Origin: Lachnospiraceae bacterium
GTDB taxonomy: Bacteria > Bacillota > Clostridia > Lachnospirales > Lachnospiraceae
Assembly: GCA_029224965.1 (NCBI GenBank)
Contig: JAQXVO010000033.1
Location: 62,001-126,000, forward strand
Reading direction: 5' to 3'
DNA length: 64,000 nucleotides
The notes below the pieces were generated by a model. The model was not told where the DNA came from and did not search any database. It saw nothing but the letters and a program-made list of their open reading frames with translations. Every line of letters starts with the position of its first letter. Within the stretch, counting starts at the first letter, position 1. A program made the translations under genes and the position numbers. Positions 56,201 to 56,583 of this stretch are shown here, piece by piece.

Positions 56201-56325
56201 AGGTGCCTCCTTATTCTGTAATCTTTTTTCTTAGTTTCCTGTTTAGGTTTCGGTTTTCGGTTTTGGTTGTTCTGTTTCTGTTTTTGTTTTTTCGATTTTA
56301 TTCATTTATATTGTTTTCGATATTA

Positions 56326-56352
56326 TTAGCACTCATAAATGTCGGTTGCTAA
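56326..56352. promoter_or_regulatory. CIRCE-like HrcA operator upstream of lon
   Basis: TTAGCACTC-N9-GGTTGCTAA versus CIRCE consensus TTAGCACTC-N9-GAGTGCTAA (left arm 9/9, right arm 7/9), 126 bp upstream of the lon start. Confidence 0.8.
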
Positions 56353-56523
56353 TACAGATCAAATAATACTCCCTCATTTTCAAGAATGCAAGGGTACAGG
56401 AAAGAATTTATGATTCTTTAATAAATGGATCCGCCTGTCAGCAGGCAGGAAAAGTGCTATCTTAATATGGTGGCAGTGTAATAAGTCATCACCCGCCTTG
56501 CGCTTGTGCAAAAAGTAGGTGTT

Positions 56524-56583
56524 ATGAGTGCGAATTGCGCAGCGGATCTTCGAATGAGCGCGAATCGCGCAGCGGACCTTCGA
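56524..56583. repeat. Two tandem 30-bp repeats (27/30 identical)
   Basis: ATGAGTGCGAATTGCGCAGCGGATCTTCGA / ATGAGCGCGAATCGCGCAGCGGACCTTCGA. Confidence 0.9.

Follow-up and report, generated by a model that had tools for sequence, protein, structure and literature searches.

Does an inverted repeat resembling the CIRCE operator, found upstream of lon in a Lachnospiraceae bacterium, bring this protease under the control of HrcA? The window, by which we mean the whole stretch of 64,000 nt that was analysed, holds a single match with three or fewer mismatches to the CIRCE pattern used here (TTAGCACTC-N9-GAGTGCTAA, with few mismatches and a 9-nt spacer), compared with a mean of 0.01 in shuffles of the window. 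The original prediction had described one perfect arm and one 7/9 arm separated by 9 nt, and both the coordinates and the letters proved exact when checked. On the + strand positions 56326-56352 read TTAGCACTC-ATAAATGTC-GGTTGCTAA, so that 16 of the 18 arm positions match; the left arm matches TTAGCACTC perfectly, and the right one, GGTTGCTAA, is 7/9 against the consensus GAGTGCTAA. Both mismatches fall in this one arm, which on the lon strand is TTAGCAACC and is promoter-proximal. The gap from the site (56326) to the lon ATG (56200) is 125 bp, essentially the predicted 126 bp. For comparison, ∼0.04 sites with two or fewer mismatches are expected in 2 Mb of uniform random sequence.

The gene downstream of the repeat is a clear lon, its 768-aa product scoring above the NCBIfam equivalog cut-off for "lon" (endopeptidase La; 772 versus 608 bits) and carrying the AAA, lid and Lon_C domains, with a substrate-binding domain barely above the Pfam cut-off. 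On the lon strand the order is TTGCAT-N17-TATTAT followed by CIRCE, which starts 10 nt past the predicted −10 box and should therefore cover the lon transcription start, which is where HrcA classically represses. By itself this promoter has a modest score (8/12), and a generic promoter scan did not pick it up because its −35 box scores only 3/6. As CIRCE is palindromic and this copy lies between two genes, it might instead serve the divergent class II aldolase-like ORF (start 56715), which we regard as highly improbable given that the site is 362 bp from that ORF, that the promoter boxes face lon and that, at the related locus L121, the sequence past the lon promoter is unalignable and the site remains with lon. 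The region between lon and the aldolase-like gene also contains a tandem pair of a 30-nt unit (56524-56583, 90% identical), of which no further copy was found elsewhere in the window. The features of the locus are collected in the table.

Table. Features of the lon locus, in positions of the window
Feature	Position	Strand	Remarks
Candidate CIRCE-like HrcA operator	56326..56352	.	lon strand: TTAGCAACC-GACATTTAT-GAGTGCTAA, 2 mismatches
lon, ATP-dependent protease La, 768 aa	53894..56200	-	belongs to a Lon clade found chiefly in Lachnospiraceae
Predicted −35 box TTGCAT	56386..56391	-	TTGCAT also in L121; TTGCAA in L148
Predicted −10 box TATTAT	56363..56368	-	17 nt after the −35 box; same in L121 and L148
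Putative transcription start region, at the CIRCE edge	56353..56357	-	placed from the −10 box position
Ribosome-binding site AAGGAGG	56206..56212	-	

We then considered the regulon in which such a site would have to operate. The genome that holds the window (2.0 Mb in 34 contigs, 80% complete) encodes a complete HrcA, which reaches 317.9 bits with TIGR00331 (cut-off 197.2) and has both the DNA-binding and the C-terminal domain (PF01628 and PF03444); absence of the gene is what the original prediction had named as evidence against itself. Scanning this genome for further sites, as had been proposed, gave exactly five CIRCE-like sites with three or fewer mismatches, compared with one for a reversed-pattern control. 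Apart from the lon site, all are perfect and lie upstream of classical heat-shock genes, namely groES-groEL, hrcA-grpE-dnaK-dnaJ, htpG and hsp20, with clpB located behind the CIRCE-preceded hsp20. The HrcA regulon is therefore in place in this lineage. For CtsR, there was no match to PF05848 in this 80% complete genome, a negative that is weak because the same model also missed the B. subtilis control, and no CtsR operator was detected within one mismatch in the same assembly.

The perfection of the other four sites is a counterpoint to the lon site with its two mismatches, and raises the possibility that the latter is a decayed CIRCE no longer usefully bound by HrcA, lon being an ancestral HrcA target that is now constitutive here. 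The location of both mismatches in one arm would agree with such decay, as would the complete loss of the site in some members of the Lon clade described below. Comparison with congeners points the other way. Four genomes of the genus have this type of lon (G000, G200, G201 and G205), and CIRCE precedes it in 4/4. In G201 (locus L121), where the lon coding DNA is 98% identical to that of the window, the two promoter boxes are retained along with the two CIRCE arms, including the imperfect one, whereas the spacer, leader length and flanks differ; in G205 (L148) the arms are again those of the window, with another spacer and a close promoter. A near-identical arm variant, TTAGCAACA, is found in G062. 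Because the imperfect arms and the promoter have persisted amid drift of the spacer and flanks, the lon CIRCE looks like a protein-binding site under selection. Furthermore, work on S. melliferum, in a comparison with M. gallisepticum, treats CIRCE sites with at most two mutations as functional (PMC5138195). We thus consider decay unlikely, and favor a functional site; its imperfect promoter-proximal arm, shared by at least three congeneric genomes, may make repression less tight and give a higher basal level of Lon than of the other regulon members.

Across eight congeners, CIRCE sites lie almost all at groESL, the hrcA operon, htpG, hsp20 (with paralogs), clpB or lon. The lon gene itself is patchy in the genus, being near-identical in G000, G201 and G205 (the G205 copy is interrupted by a contig end), on a different branch with 61% identity in G200, and not found in congeners G202, G203, G204, G206 and G207, a distribution that suggests loss and/or transfer. 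Two further sites stand somewhat apart. One (L191; G200:C9:11750-11776) is a one-mismatch CIRCE with no adjoining heat-shock gene recognised, possibly a relic, whose 27-mer is identical to one before clpB in G204 (L215); the other (L183; G205:C31:17045-17071) is a perfect CIRCE with 4 bases between it and the end of its contig, so that one flanking gene is missing.

Conservation extends well beyond the genus. Counting a CIRCE with three or fewer mismatches within 1 kb upstream of lon, we found the site in about 40 of the 51 sampled members of the Lon clade (52 entries, one locus being present twice), and 22 of these 40 carry it within 30 bp of the lon start codon; about a fifth of the clade is without a recognisable CIRCE. 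Among the best 30 family loci, most have a CIRCE upstream by the same mismatch limit, typically 13-30 bp from the start codon, and 900 shuffles of their upstream regions produced no match at 3 mismatches. By contrast, the canonical Lon genes of this family and order, 23 in number, are all without one, the best match having 6 mismatches. A chance match, which the imperfection of the window site might have suggested and for which only 0.01 occurrences per window are expected, is already contradicted by this conservation at lon orthologs and absence at canonical lon, and its probability is close to nil. The original prediction had likewise exposed itself to a lack of conservation at orthologous lon genes, and on this point too it holds. 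On the Lon tree the CIRCE-bearing proteins fall in a strongly supported clade, and the CIRCE label requires 7 changes compared with 21.6 when shuffled, with 0/500 shuffles as low. This clade is nearly confined to one family, taken to be Lachnospiraceae from named loci such as L041, L043 and L045. Sampling 148 genomes of the class yielded only three members with roughly 60% identity or more, counting that of the window genome, and a phylum sample of 300 genomes contained no additional ones, both samples apparently being without Mollicutes. L168, a clade member from another family, still has a 3-mismatch site. At some loci the site lies farther upstream with a gene between, the order being CIRCE, hsp20, lon in L021 and CIRCE, a thioesterase-like gene, lon in L015. 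Separately, the lon frame of L016 reaches upstream to give an ORF of 855 aa, whose N-terminal extension is rich in lysine.

Another possible reading is that the repeat works chiefly at the RNA level, as a hairpin in the lon 5′ leader that affects mRNA stability, and not as an operator in the DNA. The repeat would be transcribed, and in B. subtilis a link between CIRCE in the mRNA and transcript stability has been described. However, deviations within the arms are one-sided in 51 cases and two-sided in 2, a pattern that fits binding by a protein and not a hairpin in RNA; with the arm changes uncompensated, an ordinary leader fold (z −0.46) and no match to an Rfam family, we rejected the hairpin as very improbable.

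A promoter scoring at least 10/12 is found near 14 of the 40 lon CIRCE sites, compared with 4.8% with shuffled flanks, and two arrangements of promoter and operator can be distinguished. Most readable lon promoters are of the TTGACA/TATAAT type and are followed by CIRCE at the transcription start (L022, L122, L154 and L155). In the nested layout, seen at lon in L021, L024, L030, L159 and L162, the CIRCE spacer and right arm (TTGACAGTGCTAA) themselves supply a −35 box that reads TTGACA or nearly so, and the −10 box follows 17 nt beyond, so that operator and promoter have bases in common. This second layout recurs at hsp20/clpB of the genus (L192-L194, L198, L199, L202, L209, L210, L212, L213 and L215), where the nesting of the −35 box in the operator accounts for a recurring one-base change in CIRCE, CAGTGCTAA.

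Comparison with known systems defines what is new. The class I groE and dnaK operons of B. subtilis share with this locus the operator sequence, the 9-nt spacer and the placement at the transcription start, but lon is not known to be a class I gene in that organism. In C. acetobutylicum, as here, HrcA acts with CIRCE at hrcA-grpE-dnaK-dnaJ, groESL and htpG as the class I regulon (PMC3828012). Lon is, however, not among the members of that published regulon, and hsp18 and the clp genes are assigned to CtsR (PMC3828012), for which no match was found here. In C. difficile, mild heat elicited no response of lon (PMC3408451). The closest parallels are Mollicutes, HrcA/CIRCE at lon having been reported in M. 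pneumoniae (PMC7737663), M. gallisepticum (PMC4245973) and S. melliferum (PMC5138195), with CIRCE directly upstream of lon as here and a regulon shared with dnaK and clpB. The lineage is different, and in the present case groESL, htpG and hsp20 also have CIRCE. Control of lon by HrcA/CIRCE is hence not new in general, and our finding is a new lineage for known wiring. The literature searched for HrcA and lon in Lachnospiraceae gave nothing relevant, an earlier in-silico prediction (e.g. RegPrecise) being possible; what is new relative to that literature is the lineage, the link to one Lon subfamily rather than canonical Lon, and the recurring −35 box inside CIRCE.

The site, the adjoining conserved promoter, the intact hrcA, the regulon context and the cross-species conservation were each observed directly. 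From them we infer that lon is regulated by HrcA here, and estimate a probability of roughly 0.88 that the inverted repeat is a working operator that would repress lon in unstressed cells. The mechanism would be that of B. subtilis, where GroEL keeps HrcA active and titration of GroEL by unfolded protein releases the repressed genes (PMC3828012, PMC7737663), and it is on this model that HrcA binding, repression and GroEL-dependent release at lon are proposed. HrcA, kept active by free GroEL/ES, would bind the lon transcription start; with the chaperonin engaged by unfolded proteins, HrcA would become inactive, and lon would then be induced together with groESL, hrcA-grpE-dnaK-dnaJ, htpG, hsp20 and probably clpB. 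The suggestion in the original prediction that lon joins the HrcA regulon in this lineage is thereby supported by the regulon context, by hrcA and by conservation, and the best reading of the genomic evidence is that lon is a genuine member here and would have been one since early in its Lon clade. With distinctly less assurance, we lean towards a broader proposal, that a distinct, near-Lachnospiraceae-only Lon subfamily became early on, and has stayed, a protease dedicated to the HrcA regulon, and that the HrcA regulon of the genus unites chaperones, Hsp20, ClpB, HtpG and Lon, with no sign of CtsR, through a reusable promoter-operator cassette whose −35 box lies within CIRCE.

If lon is under HrcA, a dominant gut family would have a major quality-control protease tied to a switch that senses the chaperonin, and folding and degradation would therefore be induced by one signal, the occupancy of GroEL. 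CIRCE would then be predicted to mark, in a family with two Lons, the one that is stress-induced.
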